Assembly (NCBI RefSeq): GCF_031760065.1
Contig: NZ_CP134500.1
Coordinates: forward strand, 2,108,001-2,172,000
Source of the DNA: Streptomyces durocortorensis
GTDB lineage: Bacteria > Actinomycetota > Actinomycetes > Streptomycetales > Streptomycetaceae
Reading direction: 5' to 3'
DNA: 64,000 nucleotides
Shown in pieces: positions 48,537 through 63,494 of this stretch. The position numbers and the translations under genes were made by a program. Numbering within the stretch: position 1 is the first letter of the stretch; each line of letters begins with the position of its first letter. The notes beneath the pieces are model-generated. The model saw only the letters and a list, made by a program, of their open reading frames with translations. It searched no databases and was not told where the DNA came from.

Positions 48537-48538
48537 CA

Positions 48539-49804
48539 ATGAAGCTCGCAGTAGTGGGTGGCGGGTCCACCTACACCCCTGAACTGATCGACGGATTCGC
48601 CCGGTTGCGGGACACGCTCCCGGTCGAGGAGCTGGTCCTCGTCGACCCCGCTGCCGACCGGCTGGAGCTGGTCGGCGGCCTCGCGCGGCGGATCTTCGCC
48701 AAGCAGGACCACGCCGGGAAGATCACCACGACCACCGACCTGGACGCGGGCGTCGCCGACGCCGACGCGGTCCTCCTCCAGCTGCGCGTCGGCGGACAGG
48801 CCGCGCGCGACCAGGACGAGACCTGGCCGCTGGAGTGCGGCTGCGTCGGCCAGGAGACCACCGGCGCGGGCGGTCTCGCCAAGGCGCTGCGGACCGTGCC
48901 GGTCGTCCTGGACATCGCCGAGCGGGTGCGCCGCACCAACCCGGACGCCTGGATCATCGACTTCACCAACCCGGTCGGCATCGTCACCCGCGCGCTGCTC
49001 CAGGCCGGGCACAAGGCGGTCGGCCTGTGCAACGTGGCGATCGGCTTCCAGCGCAAGTTCGCCCGCCTGCTGGAGGTGGAGCCGGGCGCGGTCCACCTCG
49101 ACCACGTCGGGCTCAACCACCTCACCTGGGAGCTGGGCGTGCGTCTGGGCGGCCCGGACGGTGAGAACGTGCTGCCCAAGCTGCTGACCGAGCACGGCGA
49201 CGCCATCGCGGACGACCTCCGCATGGACCGGCGGATCGTGGACCGGCTCGGCGTCGTCCCCTCGTACTACCTGCGCTACTTCTACGCCCACGACGAGGTC
49301 GTCCGGGAGCTCGGCACCAAGCCGTCCCGGGCCGCCGAGGTCGCGGCGATGGAGAAGGAGCTGCTGGCGATGTACGGCGACCCGGCGCTGGACGAGAAGC
49401 CCGAGCTGCTCGCCAAGCGCGGCGGCGCGTTCTACTCGGAGGCGGCGGTCGACCTCGCGGCCTCCCTGCTGGGCGGCGGCGGTTCGCCGGTCCAGGTGGT
49501 GAACACGTACAACAACGGGACGCTGCCGTTCCTCCCGGACGACGCGGTCATCGAGGTGCAGGCCCGGGTCGGCCACGACGGTGCGGCCCCGCTGGCCGTG
49601 CCCGCGCTGGACCCGCTGTACGCCGGTCTCATCGCCAACGTGACGGCGTACGAGGACCTCGCCCTGGAAGCGGCGCTGCGCGGCGGCCGGGACCGGGTCT
49701 TCAAGGCTCTGCTCGCCCATCCGCTGATCGGCCAGTACGAGTACGCCGAGGGCCTCACCGACCGGCTGATCGCCCACAACCGGGAGCACCTCGCGTGGGC
49801 GTGA
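48539..49804 (+). CDS. csnH: GH4 glycosidase of the csn operon
   Basis: This 421-residue NAD+- and metal-dependent glycosidase of family GH4 uses oxidation, elimination and reduction to cut glycosides. KLAVVGGGSTYTPELI is the dinucleotide-binding loop. LCNVAIGF (metal Cys) and GLNHLTW (metal His) are the usual GH4 ligands, and YNNGTLPFLPDDAVIEV is typical of the 6-phospho-beta-glucosidase branch. In this operon the substrate is more likely an imported glucosamine disaccharide. ATG 48539 lies 2 bases after csnG. Confidence 0.9.
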   Translation: MKLAVVGGGSTYTPELIDGFARLRDTLPVEELVLVDPAADRLELVGGLARRIFAKQDHAGKITTTTDLDAGVADADAVLLQLRVGGQAARDQDETWPLECGCVGQETTGAGGLAKALRTVPVVLDIAERVRRTNPDAWIIDFTNPVGIVTRALLQAGHKAVGLCNVAIGFQRKFARLLEVEPGAVHLDHVGLNHLTWELGVRLGGPDGENVLPKLLTEHGDAIADDLRMDRRIVDRLGVVPSYYLRYFYAHDEVVRELGTKPSRAAEVAAMEKELLAMYGDPALDEKPELLAKRGGAFYSEAAVDLAASLLGGGGSPVQVVNTYNNGTLPFLPDDAVIEVQARVGHDGAAPLAVPALDPLYAGLIANVTAYEDLALEAALRGGRDRVFKALLAHPLIGQYEYAEGLTDRLIAHNREHLAWA

Positions 49805-50769
49805 ACGTGTCGGTCGTCGCCGTCGACGCGGGCAACAGCAAGACCGATGTGGCGCTGATCGGCGCGGACGGCACGGTGCTGGCCTCGGCCCGGGGCGGCG
49901 GTTTCCAGCCCCCGGTCGTGGGGGTGGCGGCGGCGGTCGACGGGCTGGCCTCCGTACTGGAGCGGGCGGTGGCGGACCTGCCGGGCCCGGTCGGCTCGCT
50001 CGGGCATCTCTCCGCGTGTCTGGCCAACGCCGATCTGCCGGTCGAGGAGGCCGAGTTGGCGGCCGCCCTGGAGGCGCGCGCCTGGGGCACCTCGGTGGAG
50101 GTCCGCAACGACACCTTCGCGATCCTGCGCGCAGGGGTGGACGAGCCCCGGGGCGTGGCGGTGGTGTGCGGGGCCGGGATCAACTGCGTGGGCATGACCC
50201 CGGACGGCCGGGCCGCCCGCTTCCCCGCGATCGGGCGGATGTCCGGTGACTGGGGCGGCGGTTCGGGTCTGGCGGAGGAGGCCCTGTGGTTCGCCGCCCG
50301 CGCCGAGGACGGGCGCGGCGAGCCGACGGAGCTGGTCCGGGCGCTGCCGGGGCACTTCGGTCTCGGCTCGGTGTACGCGCTCATCGAGGCGCTGCACCGG
50401 GGCGCCGTCGAGCCGGGGCGGCGGCACGAGATGACGCCGGTGCTGTTCGCCACGGCGGCCGCCGGGGACGCGGTGGCGGCCGCGCTGGTGGAGCGGCAGG
50501 CGGCGGAGGTGGCGGCGATGGCCTCGGTGGCGCTGGCCCGCCTGGAGCTGCTGGAGGAGGAGGTTCCGGTGCTGTTGGGCGGCAGTGTGCTGGCCGCACG
50601 GCATCCGCAGCTGAACGACCGGATCGCCGATCTGCTGGCCGCCCGTGCACCGAAGGCCGACGTGCGTGTGGTGACCGAGCCGCCGGTGCTGGGTGCGGCG
50701 CTGCTGGGCCTGGACCGTACGGGTGCGGCGCCGGAGGTGCACCGCAGGCTGCGCGCGCAGTACGCCTGA
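49795..50769 (+). CDS. csnK: BadF/BadG-type sugar kinase of the csn operon
   Basis: This 324-residue kinase of the BadF/BadG/BcrA ATPase family includes N-acetylglucosamine and glucosamine kinases. SVVAVDAGNSKTDVALIG is the phosphate 1 loop, VEVRNDTFAILRAG the phosphate-acceptor Asp region, and VVCGAGINCVGM with MSGDWGGGSGLAEEAL the phosphate 2 and sugar-binding loops. GTG 49795 overlaps the end of csnH by 10 bases. It would phosphorylate the glucosamine released by CsnH and ends the operon at a strong terminator. Confidence 0.9.
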   Translation: MGVNVSVVAVDAGNSKTDVALIGADGTVLASARGGGFQPPVVGVAAAVDGLASVLERAVADLPGPVGSLGHLSACLANADLPVEEAELAAALEARAWGTSVEVRNDTFAILRAGVDEPRGVAVVCGAGINCVGMTPDGRAARFPAIGRMSGDWGGGSGLAEEALWFAARAEDGRGEPTELVRALPGHFGLGSVYALIEALHRGAVEPGRRHEMTPVLFATAAAGDAVAAALVERQAAEVAAMASVALARLELLEEEVPVLLGGSVLAARHPQLNDRIADLLAARAPKADVRVVTEPPVLGAALLGLDRTGAAPEVHRRLRAQYA

Positions 50770-50791
50770 GGCCGGAGCACACGGAACGCCA

Positions 50792-50830
50792 GGGGGCGCC
50801 CCACCGGAGACCGCGCGGTGGGGCGCCCCC
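50792..50830 (+). terminator. csn operon terminator
   Basis: Arms 50792-50806 and 50816-50830 pair perfectly over 15 bases around a 9-base loop, 22 bases after the csnK stop. Confidence 0.88.
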
Positions 50831-51121
50831 TTGTACGCGGGAGCCGCCCCTCGTACGGGGGACAGGAGGGGGGCGAGGGAACCGATCGGCCTCGTGGAAC
50901 GTGTACCTGATGGGGAGTCCGTTCGCTTATGGGGATGTTTCCGGGCACGTCGCACCGGTTGTCTTGATCGGCCGCGTCCGCACTGATCGAATGCGGGGGC
51001 CGATGGGGGATCTGGGCGTTCCTGGTGTGGATGCCCGTCCCCGCGGCCATACTTCTGGCCGGGCACGCGCCGTCCGGAAGGGGACGGGGGACCCGCCGTC
51101 CGTGACCGAGGGGGAGGTCGA
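50831..51121 (+). other. leader and promoter region of the pknG operon
   Basis: This 291-base region has no gene on either strand. A GGGGAGG ribosome site at 51108-51114 serves the first gene. The promoter was not confidently located. Confidence 0.4.
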
Positions 51122-52510
51122 GTGACACACCCGCCGAGCGGCGGCACGCCGCCGCTGCACGCGCCGGACCCGGTGTCCGCGCCCGTCGGCGTGCCCGCAC
51201 CGCGTGGCGGCGGCTTGGGCGCACAGGCGCGGCGGCTGCGTGCCGTGGCGACGACCGAGCCCGGCCGACTCCAGATCATCGGGGCCGTCCTGGCCCTGCT
51301 CGTCGTGGCGTTCGGTGCGGTGACCACCCTGGAGATATCCCAGCGGGCCGCCGCCGCCGACGACGTGGTCGGGCGCAGCCAGCCGCTGAGCGCCGACGCG
51401 GCGGACATCTACCGCTTCCTCGCGGACGCGGACACCTCCGCGGCCAGTGGCTTCCTCGCGGGTGCGCAGGAGCCCGACGCCGTGCGCGAGCAGTACCGGA
51501 AGGACATCGAGGAAGCCGCGCGGCTGCTGGTGAAGGCCGCGGCGAACACGGACTCCGCCACCGCGTCCGGGCGGGAGATCACCACGCTCAACGAGCTTCT
51601 TCCGGTCTACACGGGCCTGATCGAGCGGGCCCGCGCCAACAACCGACAGGGCCTGCCGCTGGGTGGCGCCTATCTGCGGTACGCGAACCAGAAGATGACC
51701 GGCGAGATGCTGCCCGCCGCCGAACGGCTGTACGCGGCGGAGACCGGCCGGCTGGAGTCGGACTCCGCCGACGCCCGGCGGTGGCCGCTCCTGTCGCTCG
51801 GGGCCGGGTTCCTGGCGCTGGTCGCGCTGGCGTGGATGCAGCGACGCACCTACCGCCGGACGAACCGGGTGCTGAACCACGGGCTGCTGGCGGCGACCGC
51901 GGCCGCGTCGGTGGTGGTGCTCTGGCTCGCCGTGGGGCATGCCGTGGCCCGTACGGAGCTGCGGTCGGCGATGACGCACGGCCAGGCCTCGCTGGATGTG
52001 CTCAACGACGCCCGGATCAACTCCCTGAAGGCGCGCGCCAATGAGAATCTGACCCTGGTGGCGCGCGGTGCCGTGTTGACGGCCGACGGCTCCGCCGACC
52101 AGTACGAGACGGACTACACCACGGGTATGAAGGCGTTGAAGGACCGGCTGGAGAAGGCCGAACGGCTCGCCGACGACAGGAGCGGGAGCGAGCCGGTGGC
52201 CAGGGCCGCCACCGCCGTGTCCGAGTGGCAGAGCCGCCACCGTGCGGCGCGTGCCACGGACGACCAGGGCGACTACGGCAGCGCGTTGCAGCAGATCATC
52301 GGGGCCGAGGGGTCCACCGGCGAGTCCTTCCAGCAGGTGGACGCCGCGCTGAGGAAGGCGCTCGCCCATGAGCAGGGCGAGTTCACCGCGGCGGCGGAGG
52401 ACGGGCGCGGGGCGCTGCGGGGCCTGCCGACAGGGGCCGCGGCGCTGGCGGTGCTGGGGGCGATCGCCGTGATCGTCGGGGTCAACCGCAGGCTCTCGGA
52501 GTACCGGTGA
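51122..52510 (+). CDS. GlnX-like four-helix membrane sensor protein
   Basis: This 462-residue membrane protein has helices at about 51-73, 221-239, 253-275 and 433-455. They enclose two extracytoplasmic helical domains of about 150 residues each (74-220 and 276-432). That topology, and the position immediately before a GlnH-like binding protein and a PknG kinase, match mycobacterial GlnX. There GlnX is thought to pass amino-acid binding by GlnH to PknG. The N-terminal 40 residues are Pro/Gly-rich and cytoplasmic. No enzymatic motif is visible. Start is GTG 51122 with GGGGAGG 7 bases before it. It is first of seven packed genes. Confidence 0.8.
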   Translation: MTHPPSGGTPPLHAPDPVSAPVGVPAPRGGGLGAQARRLRAVATTEPGRLQIIGAVLALLVVAFGAVTTLEISQRAAAADDVVGRSQPLSADAADIYRFLADADTSAASGFLAGAQEPDAVREQYRKDIEEAARLLVKAAANTDSATASGREITTLNELLPVYTGLIERARANNRQGLPLGGAYLRYANQKMTGEMLPAAERLYAAETGRLESDSADARRWPLLSLGAGFLALVALAWMQRRTYRRTNRVLNHGLLAATAAASVVVLWLAVGHAVARTELRSAMTHGQASLDVLNDARINSLKARANENLTLVARGAVLTADGSADQYETDYTTGMKALKDRLEKAERLADDRSGSEPVARAATAVSEWQSRHRAARATDDQGDYGSALQQIIGAEGSTGESFQQVDAALRKALAHEQGEFTAAAEDGRGALRGLPTGAAALAVLGAIAVIVGVNRRLSEYR

Positions 52511-52521
52511 GAGGGGCAGCG

Positions 52522-53574
52522 ATGACCAGGGCGAGGGGCCGGTCCGTGAAAGGCCGGTTCGCGGGCGGCCGGCTGCGTGGCTGGGGCGGCGTGACGGGGA
52601 TGGCGGCGGCGTGCGCGGTGACCGCCGCGGTCACCCTGCTGCCGCTGTCCCACCACAGCGGCGGGCCGGCCGGTGCGGATGCGGCGGGCGGCGGGGCGGT
52701 CGCGGCCGTGCAGGCGCGGGCCGAGGCGTGCACGGAGCCGGAGGCGAGCCTGCCGCCGTCGGGGGCGGACGGGCCGAACATCGCGAAGATCAAGGCGCGC
52801 GGCAAGCTGATCGCGGGAGTCGACCAGAACAGCTTCCGCTGGGGCTACCGCAATCCGGCCAACGGTGAGCTGGAGGGGTTCGACATCGATCTGGTGCGGG
52901 CCGTCGCCGAGGACGTCCTGGGCGACCCGGACGCGGTGATCTTCCGTGCGATCCCCACCAACCAGCGCATCGCCGCCCTGGAGAGCGAGCGGGTCGACGT
53001 CGTCGTACGGACGATGACGATCAACTGCAAGCGGCTGGAGCAGGTCTCCTTCTCCACCGCCTACTTCCAGGCCGGACAGCAGGTCCTCGCCCCGAAGGAG
53101 TCCGCGATCACCGGCTACGACGCCTCGCTGAAGGGCAAGCGGGTCTGCTCGGCCGAGGGCTCCACCGCGTACGAGGCGCTGGAGAAGGAGTCCTTCGGGG
53201 CGGTCTACAAGGACGAGTTCGACGGCACCGAGCGCGACCGGGACCGGCTGACCGTGCCGAACCAGCTGGACTGCCTGGTGCGGCTCCAGCTCGGCGAGGT
53301 CGACGCGATCGTCACGGACAACGCCCTGGCGGCCGGTCAGGCGGCCCAGGACCCGGCGGTGGAGCTGAAGGGGAAGGCTCCGTTCACCACCGAGTACTAC
53401 GGCGTCGCTACCAAGAAGGGCGCCGACGACCTGGTGGCCCGGGTCAACAAGGTCCTCGTCGACTACCGGGCGGGCGGCAGGAACAGCGCCTGGATGACGT
53501 CCTACGACAAGTGGCTGGCGACCGGCCTGCCCGGCATCACGGCACCGCCCGCACCCAAGTACCGCAACGACTGA
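52522..53574 (+). CDS. GlnH-like amino-acid-binding protein
   Basis: This 350-residue extracytoplasmic binding protein of family 3 (polar amino acids) has an N-terminal hydrophobic segment (GGVTGMAAACAVTAAVTLLPL), which exports or anchors it. The domain follows from IKARGKLIAGVDQNSFRWGYRNPANGELEGFDIDLVRAVAEDVLGDP. ALESERVDVVVRTMTINCKRLEQVSFS is the ligand-binding strand region. There are no ABC permease or ATPase genes beside it, as for GlnH next to mycobacterial pknG, so sensing rather than transport is likely. ATG 52522 follows GAGAGGGG; GTG 52507, overlapping the previous stop, is possible. Confidence 0.87.
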   Translation: MTRARGRSVKGRFAGGRLRGWGGVTGMAAACAVTAAVTLLPLSHHSGGPAGADAAGGGAVAAVQARAEACTEPEASLPPSGADGPNIAKIKARGKLIAGVDQNSFRWGYRNPANGELEGFDIDLVRAVAEDVLGDPDAVIFRAIPTNQRIAALESERVDVVVRTMTINCKRLEQVSFSTAYFQAGQQVLAPKESAITGYDASLKGKRVCSAEGSTAYEALEKESFGAVYKDEFDGTERDRDRLTVPNQLDCLVRLQLGEVDAIVTDNALAAGQAAQDPAVELKGKAPFTTEYYGVATKKGADDLVARVNKVLVDYRAGGRNSAWMTSYDKWLATGLPGITAPPAPKYRND

Positions 53575-53667
53575 CCCCGTACCACCGGCAGGCGTACGGA
53601 CCGGAGCAGACCGAAGCAAGCGATCCCGCCGGGCCGACGGCCGGCGGGGAGAGCGGAGAGGTGTTCG

Positions 53668-55020
53668 ATGGGCGTCGCGGGATCCTTCCCCAGCTTCGCG
53701 GGGAGGCCTCCCGGCCCGGTCATGGACCGGGAGGAGGCGGACCGTGCGCTGGCCCGGCTCGGTGCGGAGCACGAGGCCATCGAGACCTCGCTCCTCGCCC
53801 TCCAGGACCATGCCGGCCGCCGGCTCCTGGAAGGTGCCGGGCTGACCGGTGTCACCCGGGAGCGCTGGGCCACGACCGAGCAGTCGATCACCCTGCTCTG
53901 GGGGTACTTCGACGCCTACGCGGGGGCGCTGGCCGAGGCCCGGGAGATACGGGCCCGCAGGCGCCAGCCGAACCGGGAGGACCTCGCCGCGCTGACCGAG
54001 CTCCTGCGCGGGGACGCGGTCCATGTGGCGAACCCGGGGGCGCTGCCGCCGCCCCCGGTCGCCGGCCCGGCACGGCTCTCCGAGCGGTTCTCGCTCCAGG
54101 AACTGGTCGCCCGGATGAACGAGCTGTACGCCCGTTCCCTGGACATGGTCGTCGCCGCCGACTCCGTCTGGTCGGCGCTGCCCGCCCGGATCGATCTGCT
54201 CGCGGCCGAGCTGCACCGGACGCGTTCCCTGGCCCACTCGGTGGGCGTGCGGCCCGGTGAGCATCCGGCGGGCGACGATCTCGCGGAGATCACCGAGGAG
54301 CTGACCACCCTGCGGACCCAGGTGATATCCGACCCACTGGCGTTCTGGCTGCCGGGGCCCGGCAGCGCGGCGCCCGGCGGCGGCCGCCCCGACACCTCGC
54401 GCTACGACCGGGCCGCCCGCGCCCTGGAGGACGTACGGCGGGAGATCGAGGCGGTCCTGGCGGTCCGCCAGGACGCCGAGGCCCGCCTGGTCCGGCTGCG
54501 GGACGTGCTCTCCCGGGCCGACCGCACCCTCACCGAGGCGCGGGCGGCACGCGGTGAGGTGCTGGCGAAGATCGCCGCCTCCGAGGTGCCCGCGGTCAGC
54601 GGTCCGCCGACCGCCCTCCAGGAGCGTCTGGCTGCCGCGTCGGACTACCGCAGGCACGCCCAGTGGCACCGGCTCTCGCCGCTGCTGGAGTCGCTGGAGC
54701 AGGAGGCCGAGGACGAACTGCTGCGCGCCCGCGAGTCGCTGACCTCGGTGACGGCCCCGCTGGCGGTCCGCGCGGAGCTGCGCGGCCGGCTCGACGCGTA
54801 CAAGGCGAAGGTGGCCCGGCACGGCCTGGCGGAGGACCCGATGCTGATCGAGCGGTACGACGCGGCGCGCCGGATGCTGTGGAGCGCGCCGTGCGATCTG
54901 CGGGTCGCCGAGCAGGCCGTCCTGCGCTACCAGCACGCGGTCCAGGAACTGCTGGCGCCGCGTCGGCCCGACGGCCCCCAGGACCGGCGGGACGCGGGCG
55001 AACAGGGGGAGAGCCGATGA
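53668..55020 (+). CDS. uncharacterised helical protein in the pknG operon
   Basis: This 450-residue cytosolic protein is almost wholly alpha-helical and rich in Glu, Arg and Ala. It has long heptad-like stretches at about residues 18-100, 135-215 and 245-340 (RYDRAARALEDVRREIEAVLAVRQDAEARLVRLRDVL). It has no signal peptide, membrane helix or recognised domain. A predicted linker around 225-245 is Pro/Gly-rich. It sits between the binding protein and the kinase, and its stop overlaps the kinase start as ATGA. A scaffold linking GlnX to the kinase, or a kinase substrate, would fit, but this is inference. Confidence 0.75.
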   Translation: MGVAGSFPSFAGRPPGPVMDREEADRALARLGAEHEAIETSLLALQDHAGRRLLEGAGLTGVTRERWATTEQSITLLWGYFDAYAGALAEAREIRARRRQPNREDLAALTELLRGDAVHVANPGALPPPPVAGPARLSERFSLQELVARMNELYARSLDMVVAADSVWSALPARIDLLAAELHRTRSLAHSVGVRPGEHPAGDDLAEITEELTTLRTQVISDPLAFWLPGPGSAAPGGGRPDTSRYDRAARALEDVRREIEAVLAVRQDAEARLVRLRDVLSRADRTLTEARAARGEVLAKIAASEVPAVSGPPTALQERLAAASDYRRHAQWHRLSPLLESLEQEAEDELLRARESLTSVTAPLAVRAELRGRLDAYKAKVARHGLAEDPMLIERYDAARRMLWSAPCDLRVAEQAVLRYQHAVQELLAPRRPDGPQDRRDAGEQGESR

Positions 55021-57860
55021 GTACGCAGTGCCAGCGCCCCGGTTGCGAGGGCGCCTACGAGGACATGGGCGGCGGCGAGCTGTACTGCGGCACCTGCGGC
55101 CTGGCCCCGGTCGTCTCGCCGACGGGCATGGTGAGTTCGCCGCCCACGGGGGTCGCCGGGGGCGGCCGGGCGAGCAGCCGGGACAGCTCCTCGCAGCGCT
55201 CCGGGTCCCGCGCCTCCTCGCGGTCCTCGTCGCGTTCGTCGACCTCGCGCCGCTCGGTCTCGGGGCGGCTGTCGCGCTCGCTGTCCGGGGCGTCCACCTC
55301 ACGTTCGGTCTCGGTGCGCTCCTCGGGTTCCACGTCGGCGACCTCGGCCCGGGGCCGCCTCGGCGTCGGTCTGGTGGAGGTGCCGGACGTGCCCCGGCCC
55401 GATCCGCGTACGGCGGTGCTGGAGAACCCGGAGGTACCCGAGCGCAAGCGGTTCTGCTCCCGCTCGGACTGCGGGGCCCCGGTGGGCCGTTCGCGCGGGG
55501 ACCGGCCGGGCCGCACGGAGGGGTTCTGCACCAAGTGCGGTCACCCCTACTCCTTCGTGCCGAAGCTGGGCGGCGGGGACATCGTGCACGGCCAGTACGA
55601 GGTCGTGGGCTGCCTGGCGCACGGCGGGCTCGGCTGGGTGTACCTCGCGGTGGACCGCGCCGTCTCGGACCGCTGGGTGGTCCTCAAGGGCCTGCTGGAC
55701 ACCGGCGACCAGGACGCGATGGCCGCCGCGATCTCCGAGCGCCGCTTCCTCGCCGAGATCGAGCACGCCAACATCGTCCGCATCTACAACTTCGTCGAGC
55801 ACCTGGACCAGCGGACCGGCTCGCTCGACGGGTACATCGTCATGGAGTACGTCGGCGGCAAGGCGCTCAAGGAGATCGCCAACGAACGCCGTACCCCGGC
55901 CGGGAAGCGCGATCCGCTGCCGGTCGAGCAGGCGTGCGCGTACGGGATCGAGGCGCTGGAGGCGCTCGGCCATCTGCACAGCCGCAATCTCCTCTACTGC
56001 GACTTCAAGGTCGACAACGCGATCCAGACCGAGGGCCAGCTGAAGCTGATCGACATGGGCGCGGTGCGCCGGATGGACGACGACGAGTCGGCCATCTACG
56101 GCACGGTCGGCTATCAGGCCCCCGAGGTCGCGGAGCTGGGCCCCTCGGTCGCTTCCGACCTGTACACGGTGGCGCGGACGCTGGCGGTGCTCACCTTCGA
56201 CTTCCAGGGGTACACGAACGTCTTCGTGGACTCGCTGCCGGACCCGGACACCATCGAGGTGCTGCGCACCTACGAGTCGTTCTACCGGCTGCTGGTACGG
56301 GCCACCGACCCGGACCCGGCCCGGCGCTTCGCCTCGGCCGCGGAGATGGCCGAGCAGCTGACGGGGGTGCTGCGGGAGGTCGTGGCGCTCCAGACGGGGC
56401 GGCCGAGGCCCGCGCTGTCGACGCTGTTCGGCACGGAACTGCGCGTGACAGACACGGAGTTGTTCGCCGAACAGAGGGGCGACGTGTCCGAGCTGGGCGC
56501 CCGCGCCGCCTCCGCTCGCGGCGGGCTCTTCGGCCGCCGCAGGGGCGGGGCGCGTCCGCTGTCCGGAATTCCGGCACAGGGAGGGGCGGCGCCCGCAGCG
56601 CCCCCGCCACCGGTCGCGGGGGCGCTGCCGTCAGGTGTCCAGCCTTCCGGTCCGGCTTCGGGCCCGGCGGGGGCCGTTCCGGTGGGCGCCCAGCCTTCCC
56701 ATCCGGCTTCGGGCCCGGCGGGGGCCGACCCGCTGGGGGCGCCGCCGACCCATGTCCGGGGCGGTCCGCAGGGCGGTGCGCCGCTCGCGTACGCTCCCCC
56801 GGCGCACGCCCCGGTCCCGGCGCCCCGGACGGCGGAGCCCGCCCCCGGCACGGCGATGGGAGCGGCGTACGGGCCCACGAGCGGACCGGCGGTCCCCGGG
56901 GACGTCCGGCTCGTCGCGTTCGACGCCCGGGCCACCTCGCTGGCGCTGCCCGTCCCCCGGGTCGACGCGACGGACCCGAACGCCGGTTTCCTCGCCGGAC
57001 TGATGGCCGCCGCCCCGGCCGAGCTGATCACGGCCCTGCGCGCGGTGCCCGCGCCCTCGCCGGAGACCCGGCTGCGGGAGCTGCGGGCCTGGCTGGAGAT
57101 GCGGGAGCTGGATTCGGCCGCCCGTGCGCTGACCACCCTGGAGGGTGAACACCCGGACGACTGGCGGGTCGTCTGGTATCGCGGCGTCACCTCGCTGGTG
57201 ACCGGTGACGACGAGAGTGCCGCGCTCTCCTTCGACGCGGTCTACGACGCCTTCCCCGGGGAGATGGCGCCCAAGCTGGCGCTGGGGATCTGCGCGGAGG
57301 TGCTGGGCCAGCTGGACAACGCCGCCGAGTACTACCGCCTGGTGTGGGCGACCGATCCGGGTTACGTCAGCGCCGCGTTCGGCCTGGCCCGGGTGCAGAT
57401 GGCCGCCGGGGACCGGGACGCGGCGGTGCGCACTCTGGAGTCGGTGCCGGAGGCCTCGATCCACTACACGGCCGCCCGGGTCGCCGCCGTGCGGTCACGG
57501 CTGCGCGAGCGCTCCCCGCACGAGCCGCTGCTGACCGATCTGACGGCCGCCGCGAGCCAGGTGACGGCGCTGGCCGCCTTCGGTCTGGATCCGGTGCGCC
57601 GCGAGCAGTTGTCGACCGAGGTACTGGGCAAGGCGCTGGACTGGGTACTCTCCGGTAGTCCCGGTGCCCCGTCACCGGGCGGGCCGGAGACCGGGCCTCC
57701 GGGCTCCCGGAAGCTGCTCGGCGCCGAACGGGACGAGCGGGGACTGCGGTTCGGGCTGGAAAGCTCGTACCGGATGCTCGCCCGGCTCGCGCAGCGGGGC
57801 GACGAGAGGATCGAACTGGTGGAGCGGGCCAACCGTTTCCGCCCCCGGACGTGGGTGTGA
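55017..57860 (+). CDS. pknG: PknG-type Ser/Thr protein kinase with zinc ribbons and TPRs
   Basis: This 947-residue soluble kinase has an N-terminal zinc ribbon (Cys5, 10, 24, 27) and a Ser/Arg-rich disordered stretch (45-112). A rubredoxin-like element follows (Cys147, 152, 171, 174). The kinase domain (about 193-430) resembles mycobacterial PknG: GQYEVVGCLAHGGLGWVYLA, Lys224, YIVMEYVGGKALKE, YCDFKVDN with catalytic Asp329, DMGAV with Asp346, and GYQAPEV. A Pro/Gly/Ala-rich linker (about 520-640) leads to C-terminal TPRs (about 680-947). ATG 55017 overlaps the previous stop. The N-terminal ribbon is additional to the Mycobacterium layout as I know it. Confidence 0.92.
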   Translation: MSTQCQRPGCEGAYEDMGGGELYCGTCGLAPVVSPTGMVSSPPTGVAGGGRASSRDSSSQRSGSRASSRSSSRSSTSRRSVSGRLSRSLSGASTSRSVSVRSSGSTSATSARGRLGVGLVEVPDVPRPDPRTAVLENPEVPERKRFCSRSDCGAPVGRSRGDRPGRTEGFCTKCGHPYSFVPKLGGGDIVHGQYEVVGCLAHGGLGWVYLAVDRAVSDRWVVLKGLLDTGDQDAMAAAISERRFLAEIEHANIVRIYNFVEHLDQRTGSLDGYIVMEYVGGKALKEIANERRTPAGKRDPLPVEQACAYGIEALEALGHLHSRNLLYCDFKVDNAIQTEGQLKLIDMGAVRRMDDDESAIYGTVGYQAPEVAELGPSVASDLYTVARTLAVLTFDFQGYTNVFVDSLPDPDTIEVLRTYESFYRLLVRATDPDPARRFASAAEMAEQLTGVLREVVALQTGRPRPALSTLFGTELRVTDTELFAEQRGDVSELGARAASARGGLFGRRRGGARPLSGIPAQGGAAPAAPPPPVAGALPSGVQPSGPASGPAGAVPVGAQPSHPASGPAGADPLGAPPTHVRGGPQGGAPLAYAPPAHAPVPAPRTAEPAPGTAMGAAYGPTSGPAVPGDVRLVAFDARATSLALPVPRVDATDPNAGFLAGLMAAAPAELITALRAVPAPSPETRLRELRAWLEMRELDSAARALTTLEGEHPDDWRVVWYRGVTSLVTGDDESAALSFDAVYDAFPGEMAPKLALGICAEVLGQLDNAAEYYRLVWATDPGYVSAAFGLARVQMAAGDRDAAVRTLESVPEASIHYTAARVAAVRSRLRERSPHEPLLTDLTAAASQVTALAAFGLDPVRREQLSTEVLGKALDWVLSGSPGAPSPGGPETGPPGSRKLLGAERDERGLRFGLESSYRMLARLAQRGDERIELVERANRFRPRTWV

Positions 57861-57862
57861 AG

Positions 57863-59104
57863 ATGTCTCAGAGCGACCAGCAGCCCGCCGTGTCGAGGTG
57901 CCCCGGCTGCGAGGAGCCGCTGGATGCGGGCGATCTGTTCTGCGGGGCGTGCGGCTACGACCTCTCGGCCGTGCCGGCGCGCCCCCACGACCGGCCCACG
58001 ATGGCCATCACGGTGCCGGCGGGCGAGGCCGCCGGAGCCGTGCGCCACGACGAACGGACGGACCCGGGGGCCCGTGGCGGTGCGGACGACTCGGGGGACT
58101 TCGCGCTGGCGGCGCCCGATCCCCGTACGGCGGAGCACGCCGCCGCGCCCCTCGCCGCGCCCGCCGCCGGGGCGAAGGTGTGTGTGGCCTGCCGCTCGGG
58201 CCAGGTGGACCGGGACGGCTACTGCGAGAACTGCGGGCACGCGCAGCCCCGCGAGCGCGACCACATGGAGCAGGAGCTGGACGCGGTGGCCGCCGTCAGC
58301 GACCGGGGCCTGCGCCACCACCGCAACGAGGACTCCTTCGCGGTGTCCTCGACCGCGCTGCCGGACGGTTCGCCCGCCGTCGTCGCGATCGTCTGCGACG
58401 GCGTGTCCTCGGCGAGCCGGCCCGACGAGGCGTCGGCGGCCGCGGCGAGCGCCGCCAACGAGTCGCTCCTGGAGTCGCTGCCCCGGGGCACTCATCCGCA
58501 GCAGGCGATGCACGAGGCGATCGTCGCCGCGTCCGAGGCGGTCAACGCCCTGGCGCAGGAGCCCGCCGGGGCGATGGAGCACGACGCGCACCGCCATCAG
58601 AACGCCCCGGCCTGCACCCTGGTCGGCGCGATCATGGCGGGCGGGCTGCTGATCGTCGGCTGGGTCGGCGACAGCCGGGTCTACTGGGTGCCCGAGGACC
58701 GCACGGGCCCGCCCGCCCGGCTCACCGAGGACGACTCCTGGGCCGCGCAGATGGTGGCGGCGGGCCTGATGAACGAGGCGGAGGCGTACGCGGACGAGCG
58801 CGCCCACGCCATCACCGGCTGGCTCGGCGCCGACGCGTACGAACTGGAGCCGCACACCGCCGCGTTCAAGCCGGACCGGCCCGGCCTGGTGGTCGTCTGC
58901 ACGGACGGCCTGTGGAACTACGCGGAGTCGGCGCAGGAGATGGCCGCCGCCGTCCCGGCCGAGGCCCGGACGCGCCCGCTGCACGGGGCCCAGGTGCTCG
59001 TCGGGCACGCGCTCGACGGCGGGGGCCACGACAACGTAACAGTGGCACTTCTGCCGTTCGCCGTGGGGCCGCAGGGGGCAGGATCGGCCTGCACCGCCGT
59101 TTGA
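57863..59104 (+). CDS. PP2C-family protein phosphatase with zinc ribbons
   Basis: This 413-residue cytosolic Ser/Thr phosphatase is probably the counterpart of the kinase just upstream. Zinc ribbon one uses Cys13, 16, 27 and 30; ribbon two reads CVACRSGQVDRDGYCENCG. The PPM domain follows with RHHRNEDSF, VVAIVCDGVSSASRPDEAS (metal Asp), LIVGWVGDSRVYWV, LVVVCTDGLWNYAE and GGHDNVTVALLPF, so all metal ligands are present. ATG 57863 lies 2 bases after the kinase stop. GTG 57851 is the alternative. Confidence 0.9.
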   Translation: MSQSDQQPAVSRCPGCEEPLDAGDLFCGACGYDLSAVPARPHDRPTMAITVPAGEAAGAVRHDERTDPGARGGADDSGDFALAAPDPRTAEHAAAPLAAPAAGAKVCVACRSGQVDRDGYCENCGHAQPRERDHMEQELDAVAAVSDRGLRHHRNEDSFAVSSTALPDGSPAVVAIVCDGVSSASRPDEASAAAASAANESLLESLPRGTHPQQAMHEAIVAASEAVNALAQEPAGAMEHDAHRHQNAPACTLVGAIMAGGLLIVGWVGDSRVYWVPEDRTGPPARLTEDDSWAAQMVAAGLMNEAEAYADERAHAITGWLGADAYELEPHTAAFKPDRPGLVVVCTDGLWNYAESAQEMAAAVPAEARTRPLHGAQVLVGHALDGGGHDNVTVALLPFAVGPQGAGSACTAV

Positions 59105-59123
59105 GCTTCAAGGAGCCGACCAG

Positions 59124-60485
59124 ATGGCCAACTTCTCCAAGTCGAACGTGCCGCAGTTCTCCGTCGAGGTGTACCAGAACGCGTTCCTGCCCGAGGGCGG
59201 ACGTGAGGTCAACGCGATCGTCACGGTCACCTCGACCGGCGGCGGCACCACCGGGGGCGTTCCGCTGGCGGGGGTCGCGCCCTCACCGGCGTACGGGCCG
59301 GGGCAGGCGCCCGACGCGGCCGTGGTGCTGATGGTCGACTGTTCCGGTTCGATGGACTATCCGCCGACGAAGATGCGCAACGCGCGCGACGCGACGGCCG
59401 CGGCCATCGACACCCTGCGCGAGGGCACCCGGTTCGCGGTGGTCGCCGGGACGCATGTGGCCAAGGACGTCTACCCGGGTGAGGGGCGGCTCGCGGTCGC
59501 CGACGCGCGGACGAAGGCGCGGGCCAAGGACGCCCTGCGGAAGCTGAGCACGGGCGGCGGCACCGCGATCGGCACCTGGCTGCGGCTGGCCGACCGGCTG
59601 CTGGGCTCCGCCGACGTGGGCATCCGGCACGGCATCCTGCTGACCGACGGCCGCAACGAGCACGAGGCGCCCGAGGACCTGCGGGCGGCCCTGGACTCCT
59701 GCGCCGGGCGGTTCACCTGTGACGCCCGCGGGGTGGGCACCGACTGGGAGGTGAAGGAGGTCACCGGCATAGCCGCCGCCCTCCTCGGCACGGCCGACAT
59801 CGTCGCCGACCCCTCGGAGCTGGCCGCGGACTTCACGCGGATGATGGAGAACGCCATGGGCAAGGAGGTCGCGGACGTGGCGCTGCGGCTCTGGACGCCC
59901 GTGGGGGTGGAGATCCGCTTCGTGAAGCAGGTCGCGCCGACGGTCGCGGACCTGACCGGCCGGCGCACGGAGGCGAGCCCTCGGGCCGGGGACTATCCGA
60001 CGGGTTCGTGGGGCGACGAGTCCCGCGACTACCACGTGTGCGTCCAGGTGCCGGCGGCCGGGATCGGCCAGGAGATGCTGGCCGCCCGGGTCTCGCTCGT
60101 CCTGCCCGGCCCCCCGGGCACGGGCGCCCCGCAGACCCTGTCCCAGGGGCTCGTACGGGCGGTGTGGACGGACGACATGGTGGCGTCGACCTCGATCAAT
60201 CCGCAGGTCGCGCACTACACGGGTCAGGCGGAACTGGCACAAGTCATCCAGCAGGGTCTGGACGCACGCAAGTCGGGCGACTTCGACGGCGCGACGGCGA
60301 AACTGGGCCGTGCGGTGCAGCTGGCGTCGGCGTCCGGGAACCAGGACACTGCGAAACTGCTTTCGAAGGTGGTCGACGTCGTCGATGCGGCGACAGGTAC
60401 TGTGCGACTGAAGGCGAAGGTCGCGGAAGCGGACGAGATGACCCTCGAAACGCGCTCCACCAAGACCGTTCGCGTCAAGAAGTAG
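59124..60485 (+). CDS. von Willebrand factor A domain protein
   Basis: This 453-residue cytosolic protein has a beta-sandwich-like N-terminus (FSVEVYQNAFLPEGGREVNAIVTV) and a VWA domain from about residue 65. The metal-ion site is complete: DCSGSMD, then GGGTAIGTW, and LLTDGRNEHEAPEDLR. A C-terminal beta-rich region precedes a helical repeat-like segment GLDARKSGDFDGATAKLGRAVQLASASGNQDTAKLL. It resembles vWA proteins that travel with PP2C phosphatases and kinases in TerY-P-like triads. It starts 19 bases after the phosphatase gene. Confidence 0.9.
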   Translation: MANFSKSNVPQFSVEVYQNAFLPEGGREVNAIVTVTSTGGGTTGGVPLAGVAPSPAYGPGQAPDAAVVLMVDCSGSMDYPPTKMRNARDATAAAIDTLREGTRFAVVAGTHVAKDVYPGEGRLAVADARTKARAKDALRKLSTGGGTAIGTWLRLADRLLGSADVGIRHGILLTDGRNEHEAPEDLRAALDSCAGRFTCDARGVGTDWEVKEVTGIAAALLGTADIVADPSELAADFTRMMENAMGKEVADVALRLWTPVGVEIRFVKQVAPTVADLTGRRTEASPRAGDYPTGSWGDESRDYHVCVQVPAAGIGQEMLAARVSLVLPGPPGTGAPQTLSQGLVRAVWTDDMVASTSINPQVAHYTGQAELAQVIQQGLDARKSGDFDGATAKLGRAVQLASASGNQDTAKLLSKVVDVVDAATGTVRLKAKVAEADEMTLETRSTKTVRVKK

Positions 60486-60571
60486 CACAACACGATCACC
60501 TCGCGGTCATGGCGCCGCGATCGACAGCATGCGGCCTCCGGGGCCGGAAGAGGAGAGGGGGAAGCGCCGAC

Positions 60572-61981
60572 ATGCCGACCTGCCCGAACGGACACCAGTC
60601 GGGTTCCGAGGACTGGTGCGAGGTCTGCGGACACCGCATGGCCGCCGGCGGTGCGCCCGCGGGCGCCGTGCCCCCGCCGCCTCCGCCGCCGCCCGCGCCC
60701 GGTTACGGCTATCCGCAGGGCTCCGGCACCAGCGGCGGCCAGCCCACGATGCAGGCGGAGATCTGCCCGCAGTGCCGTACGCCGCGTGAGGCGATGGCGC
60801 CGTTCTGCGAGGAGTGCCGCTGGAACTTCCTCACCAACACGGCGACCTCCTACACCCCGCTGGCCCCGCAGCACGGCACGCCCGGCGGCCCCCCGCCCGG
60901 TCTCAACCTGCCGCCCGGCTTCCAGGCGCAGGGCCCCGGCAGCCAGGGCGGACCCGGCGGCCAGGGCGGTCCGGATGGACCCGGCGGTCAGAGCGGTCCC
61001 GGCGGTCAGAACGCGCCCGGTGGACCCGGCGGTCAGAGCGGTCCCGGCGGTCAGAACGCGCCCGGTGGACCCGGCGGTCAGAGCGGTCCCGGCGGTCAGG
61101 GCGGGCCCGGTGGCGCGCCCCAGCAGCGTGACCCGTTCGACTACCAGGGCTCGCGCCCCTCGCAGATGAACCGTCCCGCCGAGCCCCTCGCCCCCGAGCA
61201 GGGCGGCCGGAGCGGCCAGGGCCCTCAGGGCGGTCCGCACGGCAACGGCGGCCAGGCCGGTCCTCCTCCGCAGTCGTTCCAGCAGGGTCCCCCGCCGCCG
61301 CCCGCGTATGCGCAGCAGGGGCACCCGTCCCAGCAGCAGTCGGCGCCCTCCCCGTTCGAGCCCCGGCAGTCCTCGCCCTTCGCACCGCCGCAACAGCAAC
61401 AGCAGTCGGCTCCTCCCGCACCGCCGCAGTCCTCCGGCCACACCGGCGGCGGGGACGACTGGCTGCTCCCGCCGCCCTCCCAGGCCCAGGGGTACGGCCG
61501 ACAGGGGCAGGAGCAGGGGTACGACCAGGGTCAGCCGAACGGCGGGGTGCCGGGCCAGGGCCGCCCCCAGCAGCCCCTGTCCTGGACCGCCGTCATCGCT
61601 CCGGACCGCGAGTACTTCCTCGCGATGATGCAGCGCAGCGGTCCCGAGGCGACCGGGCTGAACCTGCCCGCGTACTCCCCCGAGCAGCGTCTCCCGCTCA
61701 CCGGCAACCAGATCACCATCGGGCGCCGCCGCCAGAGCACCGGCGAGTCCCCCGACATCGATCTCTCGGTGCCGCCGGAGGACCCTGGCGTCTCGCACCA
61801 GCACGCGGTGCTGGTGCAGCAGCCCGACGGCGGCTGGGCGGTCGTCGACCAGAACTCCACCAACGGCACCACGCTGAACGGCGCCGAGGACCCGATCCAG
61901 CCCTACGTCCCCGTACCCCTCCAGGACGGCGACCAGGTGCACGTCGGGGCGTGGACGACGATCACGGTCCGCCGGGACTGA
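60572..61981 (+). CDS. FHA-domain protein with zinc ribbons and Gly/Pro/Gln linker
   Basis: This 469-residue phosphothreonine-binding adaptor has two N-terminal zinc ribbons (CPNGHQSGSEDWCEVCGH and CPQCRTPREAMAPFCEECRW). A 250-residue low-complexity linker of Gly, Pro and Gln follows, including collagen-like GPGGQ runs. The FHA domain occupies about 375-469, with QITIGRRRQ, DPGVSHQHAVLV and DQNSTNGTTLNG, the conserved Arg, Ser-His and Asn of phosphothreonine recognition. It would read phosphorylation set by the operon's kinase. It has no ETT motif like GarA. ATG 60572 follows AGAGGGGG. Last gene of the run. Confidence 0.9.
   Translation: MPTCPNGHQSGSEDWCEVCGHRMAAGGAPAGAVPPPPPPPPAPGYGYPQGSGTSGGQPTMQAEICPQCRTPREAMAPFCEECRWNFLTNTATSYTPLAPQHGTPGGPPPGLNLPPGFQAQGPGSQGGPGGQGGPDGPGGQSGPGGQNAPGGPGGQSGPGGQNAPGGPGGQSGPGGQGGPGGAPQQRDPFDYQGSRPSQMNRPAEPLAPEQGGRSGQGPQGGPHGNGGQAGPPPQSFQQGPPPPPAYAQQGHPSQQQSAPSPFEPRQSSPFAPPQQQQQSAPPAPPQSSGHTGGGDDWLLPPPSQAQGYGRQGQEQGYDQGQPNGGVPGQGRPQQPLSWTAVIAPDREYFLAMMQRSGPEATGLNLPAYSPEQRLPLTGNQITIGRRRQSTGESPDIDLSVPPEDPGVSHQHAVLVQQPDGGWAVVDQNSTNGTTLNGAEDPIQPYVPVPLQDGDQVHVGAWTTITVRRD
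60976..61110 (+). repeat. 45-bp tandem repeats coding collagen-like residues
   Basis: Copies start with TGGACCCGGCGG at 60976, 61021 and 61066, an exact 45-base period; the third diverges at its end. They encode 15-residue blocks of the type GPGGQSGPGGQNAPG in the FHA protein linker. Confidence 0.85.
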
Positions 61982-61988
61982 GCGGCGC

Positions 61989-62981
61989 TCATTCGCTCAG
62001 CGGCCAGGTGTAGGGGCCCTGCGGGTCGTCGAGCCAGGCCCACTGGCGGCCCTGGCCGACCGTGATGCCGTACCTCTCCCGCTGCGGGCGCCCCTCGCGC
62101 TCCCAGAGGGAGAGGGCCTCGTGCGGATCGAGAGCGCCCGCGGTCAGCGTCAGCAGGAACCGGAACAGATCGTTCCCGGCCGCCCGGCGGGGCAGTCCAC
62201 CGAGGTGCGGAAGCCCGGCGGGAAGCGGCAGCGCCCCGCGCAGGGGCACGAAGTACGCCGGGGTGTGCAGGAAGTGCCCCTCGGCGCGCGGCCCCTGCGC
62301 GGTCGCGGAGACCCGGAGCGCGACGAGCCCGGTGGCGAACGGCGCCAGGACGCGCGCCCCCGGGCGGCACTGCTCCAGCCAGGCCTGCGGTACGGACGGC
62401 AGGGTGCAGGTCGCGATGATCCGGTCGTACGGGGCGCGCTGCGGGCAGCCGCGGGCGCCGTCACCGGTGATCACCGTCGGGCGGTGCCCGGCGGCCGCGA
62501 GGTGGCGGCGGGCCGGTTCCGTGATCTCCGGATCCAGATCGATGCTGGTCACCGCCTCCTCGCCGAGCCGGTGCGAGAGCAGGGCCGCGTTGTAGCCGGG
62601 GCCGGTGCCGATCTCCAGGACCGTGTCGCCGTCCCGTACGTCGAGGGCCTCCAGCATCTGCGCCATCAGGGACGGCTGACTGGAGGACGAGATGAGTTCG
62701 CCGTCCCGGATGCGGGTGGCCAGCGCCCTGTCCGCGTACACCCCGCTCAGCCAGCGGGAGCGGCGCCCGGGGTCGGGGTCCTCGCCCCAGAGGCGCTCGT
62801 ATCCCGCGATGCCGTGCACGTAGTAGGACGGCACGAACAGATGGCGGGGCACCTCGACGAAGGCGGCGTACCAGGCGGGGTCGGTCAGCCCGCCCTGCGC
62901 GACGATCTCCCGCACCAGGGCATGCCTCGCCGCGTCGGCCTCGGCTGCGGGGACGGCGGGGGTCTCCCGGTCTGCTCCCAT
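61989..62981 (-). CDS. protein-L-isoaspartate O-methyltransferase family protein
   Basis: This 330-residue protein belongs to the SAM-dependent PCMT family, which repairs isoaspartyl residues or modifies specialised peptides. It shows EVPRHLFVPSYY, ISSSSQPSLMAQMLEAL, motif I VLEIGTGPGYNAALLSHRLG and SIDLDPEI, then APYDRIIATCTLPSVPQAWLEQCRPGARVLAP. About 100 C-terminal residues exceed the classical enzyme; this extended form is common in Streptomyces. ATG 62981 has GGAG only 2 bases from the start, so the start is uncertain; the frame is open to 63431. It is convergent with the FHA gene. Confidence 0.85.
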   Translation of the reverse strand: MGADRETPAVPAAEADAARHALVREIVAQGGLTDPAWYAAFVEVPRHLFVPSYYVHGIAGYERLWGEDPDPGRRSRWLSGVYADRALATRIRDGELISSSSQPSLMAQMLEALDVRDGDTVLEIGTGPGYNAALLSHRLGEEAVTSIDLDPEITEPARRHLAAAGHRPTVITGDGARGCPQRAPYDRIIATCTLPSVPQAWLEQCRPGARVLAPFATGLVALRVSATAQGPRAEGHFLHTPAYFVPLRGALPLPAGLPHLGGLPRRAAGNDLFRFLLTLTAGALDPHEALSLWEREGRPQRERYGITVGQGRQWAWLDDPQGPYTWPLSE

Positions 62982-63089
62982 CTCTCCACTGTCCTGCGCG
63001 GGGCCCGCAACGGCCAACGGCGATCCCGGGCCCGGTCCCTTGGTCCTAGGACCCCTGTCCTCGGCCGGTGCGTCTGCGACCATGGACGG

Positions 63090-63494
63090 GTGACAGAGAT
63101 TCCGCGCGACACGCTTCAGGAGCAGACCTTTTACGATCAGGTCGGCGGCGAGGCGACGTTCCGACGCCTGGTCCACCGCTTCTACGAGGGCGTGGCGGGC
63201 GACGAGCTGCTGCGGCCGATGTATCCGGAGGGGGATCTGGGCCCGGCCGAGGAGCGGTTCGCCCTGTTCCTCATGCAGTACTGGGGCGGCCCGCGCACCT
63301 ACAGCGACCACCGGGGCCACCCTCGGCTGCGGATGCGGCACGCCCCGTTCCGGGTGGACCGGGCGGCCCATGACGCCTGGCTCGCCCATATGCGGGTCGC
63401 GCTGGACGAACTGGGGCTCGCGCCCGAGCACGAGCGGCAGCTGTGGGACTACCTGACGTACGCCGCCGCGTCGATGCTCAACACCGCGGACTGA
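63090..63494 (+). CDS. glbO: group II truncated hemoglobin
   Basis: This 134-residue heme protein of the 2-on-2 globin fold binds oxygen and may detoxify nitric oxide or peroxide. FYDQVGGEATFRRLVHRFYEGVAGDELLRPMYPE starts the A/B helices with B10 Tyr-type positions. The E-helix region reads FLMQYWGGPRTYSDHRGHPRLRMRH. The proximal His lies in LRMRHAPFRVD, and the G8 Trp in QLWDYL or AHDAWL marks group II. GTG 63090 has a weak ribosome site. The gene diverges from the methyltransferase across 108 bases. Confidence 0.92.
   Translation: MTEIPRDTLQEQTFYDQVGGEATFRRLVHRFYEGVAGDELLRPMYPEGDLGPAEERFALFLMQYWGGPRTYSDHRGHPRLRMRHAPFRVDRAAHDAWLAHMRVALDELGLAPEHERQLWDYLTYAAASMLNTAD

Follow-up and report, generated by a model that had tools for sequence, protein, structure and literature searches.

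Much of what is known about the well-studied protein kinase PknG comes from an operon of three genes and from GarA/OdhI, its one main target; its gene in Streptomyces durocortorensis stands among more neighbours than that, raising the question of what further partners the kinase may have. The window analysed here, 64,000 nucleotides of NZ_CP134500.1 (positions 2108001-2172000 of a genome in a single contig of 7.30 Mb), holds seven genes on the + strand between positions 51122 and 61981, which encode GlnX, GlnH, a coiled-coil protein, PknG, a PP2C phosphatase, a VWA protein and an FHA protein, in this order. Gene content, order, strand and outer coordinates agree, by open reading frames (ORFs) and domain searches, with a preliminary description made from the DNA letters. 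The cassette is real and widely conserved, and its VWA protein bridges two arms, a sensor-kinase arm (GlnX, GlnH, PknG and VWA) and a reader-eraser arm (the coiled coil, PP2C and FHA). Quite possibly, although short of probably, the cassette is an amino-acid-sensing Ser/Thr phosphorylation switch, in which the VWA protein would be written by PknG, read by the FHA protein and reset by PP2C. The features are listed below by window coordinates and strand.

50791-50831, no strand: perfect inverted repeat of 16 bp, between the upstream sugar-kinase-like gene and GlnX
51122-52510, +: GlnX-like membrane signal transducer of 462 amino acids (aa), NF058618, four hydrophobic segments
52507-53574, +: GlnH-like solute-binding protein, PF00497; start GTG 52507 or ATG 52522
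53668-55020, +: coiled-coil protein of 450 aa, no family named, helices in its model
55017-57860, +: PknG Ser/Thr kinase of 947 aa, PF16919, PF00069 and PF16918
55347-55568, +: PknG rubredoxin domain, aa 111-184, PF16919
56892-57851, +: PknG TPR domain, aa 626-945, PF16918
57851-59104, +: PP2C-type phosphatase with two N-terminal zinc-ribbon motifs, PF13672; alternative start ATG 57863
59124-60485, +: VWA protein of 453 aa, PF13519 with complete metal-ion-dependent adhesion site (MIDAS) and C-terminal PF18571, 4fx5 family
60432-60482, +: C-terminal Ser/Thr tail of VWA, conserved pattern, candidate phospho-acceptor
60572-61981, +: FHA protein of 469 aa, PF00498; Cys pairs at the N-terminus and the FHA domain at the C-terminus, joined by a linker rich in Pro, Gly and Gln

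The kinase is a PknG in both domain content and layout. Its chain starts with a disordered part, followed by rubredoxin, kinase and TPR domains (PF16919, E-value 1.9e-32; PF00069, E 1.7e-24; PF16918, E 4.1e-88; all above cut-off), its catalytic motifs are intact (Lys in WVVLKGL, Asp-x-Lys-x-x-Asn in YCDFKVDN and the metal-motif Asp in LIDMG), and its best PDB sequence is M. tuberculosis PknG, 2pzi (E 3.3e-166). SCO2666 is presumably the PknG of S. coelicolor. A 706-aa ORF at 55028-57148, considered as PknG, is a shadow frame; the true frame starts at ATG 55017 and ends at 57860. GlnX scores 477.8 bits against the NCBIfam subfamily model NF058618 (cut-off 250) and has hydrophobic segments at aa 46-74, 221-240, 250-276 and 432-458, whereas the NCBIfam equivalog of PknG-activating GlnX, NF041460, is matched at 185.6 bits and its cut-off of 780 is not reached. 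GlnH matches PF00497 (E 2.4e-24) and finds M. tuberculosis GlnH, 6h1u, as its best PDB sequence (E 7e-48). The only lipoprotein signal in GlnH is AAAC, a weak lipobox by pattern, and five of the eight other Streptomyces compared gave no match.

Of the remaining four proteins, PP2C matches PF13672 above cut-off (E 4.6e-13), and DZR below its cut-off at the N-terminus (E 2.2e-5), with metal-site and Cys motifs conserved among relatives. In the VWA protein, PF13519 (E 2.2e-8) is followed by PF18571 (E 4.4e-23), and the family profile matches PDB 4fx5 over its full length (E 8.2e-179). The FHA protein carries PF00498 at aa 381-459 (E 2.1e-15) and a DZR match below cut-off (E 0.013), with Cys pairs conserved in most loci, the first being missing in five of eight rows of family f93. 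No Pfam family above cut-off and no NCBIfam model was found for the coiled-coil protein; its model has long helices (predicted local distance difference test score, pLDDT, 79.2), and a fold search of the PDB gave nothing at E<=0.001. The window, like most relatives, has retained the kinase, PP2C metal-site, MIDAS and FHA motifs intact. The preliminary description was right in naming PknG, GlnX/GlnH-type sensors and a metal-site VWA protein, and its view of PP2C as an eraser and FHA as a reader fits the intact active-site motifs. As a separate feature, the FHA protein linker bears collagen-like Gly/Pro/Gln repeats at 60932-61114 (aa 121-181).

To see how far the cassette extends, the neighbourhood survey of PknG homologues that the preliminary description had asked for was carried out. 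The PF16918 (PknG_TPR) profile was searched against 393 genomes of the class with E<=0.001 as a match; the genomes are not independent samples, so that the Fisher value for co-occurrence is descriptive only. Of the 393 genomes, 151 matched, 149 of them above cut-off, including 42 of the 44 Streptomyces of the draw (the window's genome included). In a phylum-level draw of 396 genomes searched likewise, 22 genomes outside the class matched, the sole strong one being G169 (E 1e-68) and the rest 1e-8 or weaker. Among 100 PknG loci, picked among the matches listed and scored with profiles from the window proteins, 57 hold all seven families, so the conserved unit does reach beyond the mycobacterial trio. 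Main loci were examined in 31 of the other Streptomyces, with 10 left out, and 30 of them have all seven families; the other, L078 of G295, is decayed. Because gene order is identical in all 30 intact loci, the cassette is not a chance assembly. Elsewhere, the seven families occur in 12 of 20 main f92 loci (two more are interrupted by contig ends), 8 of 13 f93 loci, 4 of 4 f7 loci, one f88 locus, one f43 locus (G169) and 1 of 17 f3 loci. The order is permuted in f92 (coiled coil-PknG-PP2C-VWA-FHA-GlnX-GlnH), GlnH and GlnX are on the opposite strand in f43, and in the single f108 locus the genes from GlnX to PP2C are separated from VWA and FHA by about 10 kb. GlnX-GlnH-PknG only is found in 13 of the 17 f3 loci and PknG solo in 3, and both f10 loci are trios. 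Family f3 would be the Mycobacterium-Nocardia-Corynebacterium group, judging from a VWA of G669 that is 97% identical to those of two Nocardia in the VWA alignment scan and from the three-protein tree below.

A second set was gathered by comparing the VWA alignment with genome contigs, the best 80 of 580 relatives being kept, which span Nocardia, Mycobacterium, Mycolicibacterium, Streptosporangiaceae, Actinoallomurus, Kutzneria, Streptacidiphilus and Streptomyces. Around these best 80 of 580, PP2C was found in 80, FHA in 78, PknG in 75 and all seven families in 66; 10 of the 14 incomplete loci end at contig ends. Those incomplete on long stretches are L181 (Nocardia alni) without recognised PknG, L205 (Pseudonocardia eucalypti) without GlnX and GlnH, and L220 and L225 without GlnH. 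At the genome level, VWA (E<=1e-20, same 393 genomes) is present in 101 genomes, all within the 151 that bear PknG, and in 0 of the 242 without it. Nine more Streptomyces loci are divergent PknG paralogues, with PP2C, GlnH and FHA in none and VWA in five; VWA stands beside PknG without PP2C in the divergent paralogue loci L073-L077 and L137. The VWA proteins of paralogues L074-L076 (also L073 and L077) have C-terminal Cys pairs resembling a fused zinc ribbon, and neither a PP2C nor an FHA gene was recognised at these loci. The second cassettes at f93 L252 (12436-14574) and L254 (12408-14492) have kinases whose PknG match stops before the TPR region; the L252 kinase has altered catalytic motifs and is possibly a pseudokinase.

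Just pieces of GlnX, GlnH, PknG and VWA are left in G295, where one PP2C match is interrupted by a stop. Streptomyces G590 and G622 have no PknG_TPR, VWA or GlnX match genome-wide and no GlnH match in the stretch examined, and L272 of G590 keeps a short remnant resembling the PknG end. A loss of the whole cassette in these two genomes had been considered and was dropped, as PP2C, coiled-coil and FHA searches found all three retained. In a tree of the coiled coil and PP2C, L078 stands apart from L272 and L273 (G622), which fall together with one intact locus in a starred set; the starred branches give at least two loss events, and two or three Streptomyces lineages have lost or are losing GlnX, GlnH, PknG and VWA. 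Elsewhere, PknG-VWA or PP2C-VWA-FHA occurs on its own. VWA can thus go with either arm, as a substrate or platform would if one arm wrote on it and the other read and reset it. The earlier picture of one seven-gene circuit is too simple, since at least two Streptomyces lineages split the arms and four f93 loci lack a recognised kinase.

The best mechanistic precedent for such a platform is the archaeal ArnA-ArnB pair, by analogy. ArnA is a zinc finger-FHA protein that binds the phosphorylated C-terminus of the vWA protein ArnB in a nutrient-dependent manner (PMC6509490, PMC7472852, PMC12852372), and ArnC as kinase, PP2A as phosphatase and Thr sites have been described (PMC7472852, PMC12852372); single-site mutants of ArnA-ArnB had little effect (PMC6509490). 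Judged by its sequences, the cassette has candidate equivalents of all four Arn parts of S. acidocaldarius (zinc finger and FHA reader, vWA with intact MIDAS, Ser/Thr kinase, phosphatase) and, beyond a nutrient input, a putatively defined amino-acid one. The FHA protein unites Cys pairs and an FHA domain in one chain, as the ArnA-ArnB module asks, and 4FX5, which belongs to the cassette VWA family, has been named as sharing the tripartite fold of ArnB, made of vWA, beta-sandwich and helical bundle (PMC6509490). The C-terminal tail of the VWA proteins is conserved and follows the type L-[DE]-T-x-S-T-K-T. The strict pattern is present in 61 of 61 cassette VWA proteins of the class-genome loci (the window counted in; L078, L093 and L094 left out; six paralogues kept apart) and in 75 of the 80 of the second set, the remaining five reading RSTKT; S[STV]xT near the end occurs in 65 of 70 VWA rows, the exceptions being L073, L077, L078, L094 and L137. 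The S. rimosus phosphoproteome contains one phosphorylated VWA protein, SRIM_014225, which could be the cassette VWA, although orthology could not be established (PMC9600765). Unlike the cassette, the Arn module is archaeal, uses PP2A rather than PP2C, lacks GlnX, GlnH and PknG and controls motility, and of 8s05, a code used in PMC12852372 and taken as ArnB, only the vWA part is matched in sequence (E 2.1e-8).

The proposed switch would work as follows. GlnH would bind an amino acid outside the membrane, and GlnX would relay the signal to PknG, a step with experimental support in the Mycobacterium and Corynebacterium homologues. PknG would then phosphorylate the conserved C-terminal Ser/Thr tail or the helical domain of VWA, and probably also GarA, which is encoded elsewhere. 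The zinc-ribbon FHA protein may bind phosphorylated VWA as ArnA binds phosphorylated ArnB, PP2C may reset it, and the coiled-coil protein may serve as a scaffold, while the reader-eraser arm could also serve other kinases. If the wider form of the system does bring its own phosphatase, a VWA substrate and an FHA reader, the reset of PknG signalling and its non-GarA targets become directly testable in bacteria that are non-pathogenic and produce antibiotics, and the ArnA-ArnB design, known from archaea, extends to bacteria with a defined input.

Several observations weigh against this switch. M. tuberculosis GlnH contacts its ligand through R147, T162, S164, R169, W232 and D250 (PMC6069109); the window GlnH retains R147, T162, R169 and D250 in that numbering, has Thr for Ser164 and, like the GlnH proteins of all 30 Streptomyces loci compared, Gln for Trp232. 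PknG occurs without VWA in 13 trio and 3 solo f3 loci, the two f10 trios, four Streptomyces paralogue loci and f93 L103, L110 and L111, and four f93 loci (L251, L255, L268 and L269) are PP2C-VWA-FHA without recognised kinase. The coiled coil, PP2C and FHA persist together at one place in G295 (L078), G590 (L272) and G622 (L273) despite the loss or decay of PknG, and GarA retains ETTS in G590 and G622, both without PknG. The structure model of VWA (pLDDT 39.5, from 16 close sequences) is of no use. The tail core, as STKT or STRT, also occurs in paralogue VWA proteins L074-L076, which have no neighbouring FHA gene, and a tie of the tail to the FHA gene was dropped on that account. The C-terminal family PF18571 was found in none of the 14 control genomes, which include Sulfolobus acidocaldarius, and the link to ArnB is therefore one of fold only.

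The nearest alternative keeps PknG to its known target: it would act on GarA as in Mycobacterium, the cassette PP2C would be a phosphatase dedicated to GarA, and the role of VWA, FHA and the coiled coil would be limited to scaffolding or localising the kinase. A PknG operon with sensor, signalling and effector proteins conserved across Actinobacteria, including Streptomyces, has been reported (PMC6069109), GlnH and GlnX have been studied in Corynebacterium (PMC9769921), and both papers have PknG acting on GarA/OdhI. Sensor, transducer and kinase of the cassette are encoded by homologues of the genes of that pathway, arranged as there, and PknG retains the rubredoxin, kinase and TPR domains; the coiled coil, PP2C, VWA and FHA are additions, and the Gln of Streptomyces GlnH is a further difference. 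A GarA homologue is present in 25 of 25 genomes searched (E<=1e-30; 9 above the family cut-off), that of the window's genome scoring 190 bits, below the cut-off of 200, and ETTS is kept in all five Streptomyces GarA proteins read. GarA does not track PknG, however, because seven of the 25 genomes have no PknG match, and GarA-centred control leaves unexplained both the conserved VWA tail and the way VWA follows PknG at the genome level. It is an unlikely explanation that still deserves weight, and GarA may be an output parallel to VWA. The loss pattern speaks for a looser arrangement of two neighbouring modules, GlnX-GlnH-PknG-VWA sensing amino acids and coiled coil-PP2C-FHA serving other kinases with no shared phosphorylation flow, as exactly the first set is lost or being lost and the second kept in at least two Streptomyces lineages, and the sensor-kinase trio stands alone in 13 of 17 f3 loci. 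This is rather improbable: 30 of 31 main Streptomyces loci have the genes of both sets interleaved, always in one order, f92 keeps coiled coil-PknG-PP2C-VWA-FHA together though GlnX-GlnH moved, and the four f93 copies hold PP2C-VWA-FHA together.

Conservation here is mostly by descent among genomes that are not independent, so the four extra genes might be passengers kept through ancestral linkage, sharing no function with PknG; yet VWA has no match in the 242 of 393 genomes without PknG, the permuted f92 order still holds the core together, VWA is still next to PknG in paralogue loci whose sensors are lost, and Nocardia and Mycobacterium genomes retain the full cassette, which makes this quite improbable. 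Last, the preliminary description had likened the kinase, PP2C and VWA to a TerY-P triad, and a triad of that type for stress or phage defence might have captured an amino-acid sensor. The same three classes are indeed adjacent. Defence genes are usually patchy in distribution, whereas PknG is matched in nearly all Streptomyces of the draw. The PADLOC library, which we take to hold TerY-P models, gave no match at E<=0.01 for VWA, PP2C, FHA, the coiled coil and GlnX, and the kinase matches kinase models only, a miss that lends weak support. TerY-P membership is rejected on kinase architecture, and the kinship is rejected because the cassette kinase has its metal site, a rubredoxin, at the N-terminus and a C-terminal TPR in place of the C-terminal zinc ribbon or OB fold of TerY-P kinases (PMC11090510); the FHA, coiled coil and sensors are extra, and ArnA-ArnB is the closer precedent. 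Actinobacterial GAP1-N2 GTPase systems likewise have a kinase, often with zinc ribbon, a PP2C and a stand-alone vWA adjacent (Kaur et al. 2020), and no GTPase is among the seven genes of the cassette. A captured TerY-P type triad is thus very improbable. As to the suggestion that joining amino-acid sensing to such a triad may be undescribed in function, no paper on the seven-gene set was found in the open-licence literature (a coverage leaving out figures and most subscription journals).

Returning to the switch with VWA as its platform, the relation between cassette and trio bears on its history. In a 48-row tree of GlnX, GlnH and PknG, Nocardia and Mycobacterium loci with all seven genes are sister to the f3 trio (support 100), and placing all seven-gene rows on one side is rejected by the approximately unbiased (AU) test (p 1.1e-11), these being quick trees with five rows flagged for odd composition. 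The PknG-only tree does not reject the seven-gene rows as one clade (AU p 0.093), and its best trees put the trio among them. G669 carries a full cassette (L129) in addition to a trio (L126). Ten trio genomes gave weak matches to PP2C (2 of 10, best E 2e-11) and FHA (4 of 10, best E 9e-7), and neither a coiled-coil relative nor, at E<=1e-20, a VWA. The trio of the Mycobacteriaceae type seems to be a reduced form, having apparently lost the coiled coil, PP2C, VWA and FHA, because losing four genes is easier than gaining them repeatedly; transfer of the whole cassette is the alternative. Tentatively, an Arn-type phospho-switch may have been wired to amino-acid sensing via GlnH-GlnX-PknG early in Actinomycetota, leaving the three-gene mycobacterial and corynebacterial PknG system as a reduced remnant, and Streptomyces PknG would thus have a second, undescribed output besides GarA, via VWA and FHA.

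The junctions of the cassette are mostly tight. GlnX and GlnH overlap by 4 nt, as do the coiled coil and PknG; PknG and PP2C overlap by 10 nt (start GTG 57851) or lie 2 nt apart (start ATG 57863), and PP2C and VWA are 19 nt apart. The genes had been described as following without a break, which is so at these four of the six junctions; gaps of 93 nt (GlnH/coiled coil) and 86 nt (VWA/FHA) separate the other two. The FHA start is most likely ATG 60572 rather than 60008 of the longest ORF. In the 30 intact Streptomyces loci, measured where start patterns matched, median gaps are 3 nt for PknG-PP2C (n=28; one outlier of 1096), 65.5 nt for VWA-FHA (n=30), 70.5 nt for GlnH-coiled coil (n=22) and 113 nt for PP2C-VWA (n=21); coiled coil-PknG was readable in just 4. 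About 350 nt precede GlnX and hold the inverted repeat 50791-50831, likely the boundary of the unit, and a convergent gene lies 7 nt downstream of FHA. A consensus scan, restricted to sigma-70 sites for promoters, found 0 promoters and 0 terminators in 50500-62200 (0.1 and 1.4 expected from shuffles).

Just upstream of GlnX, at 47631-50769, lie the gene of a glycosidase-family protein and a GlcNAc-kinase-like gene, whose best NCBIfam models are below cut-off, along with a sugar-transporter permease recognised by eye. Beyond FHA, 61989-63494 holds the convergent gene, which is methyltransferase-like (isoaspartate type, by eye), and a truncated-haemoglobin-like protein (by eye).

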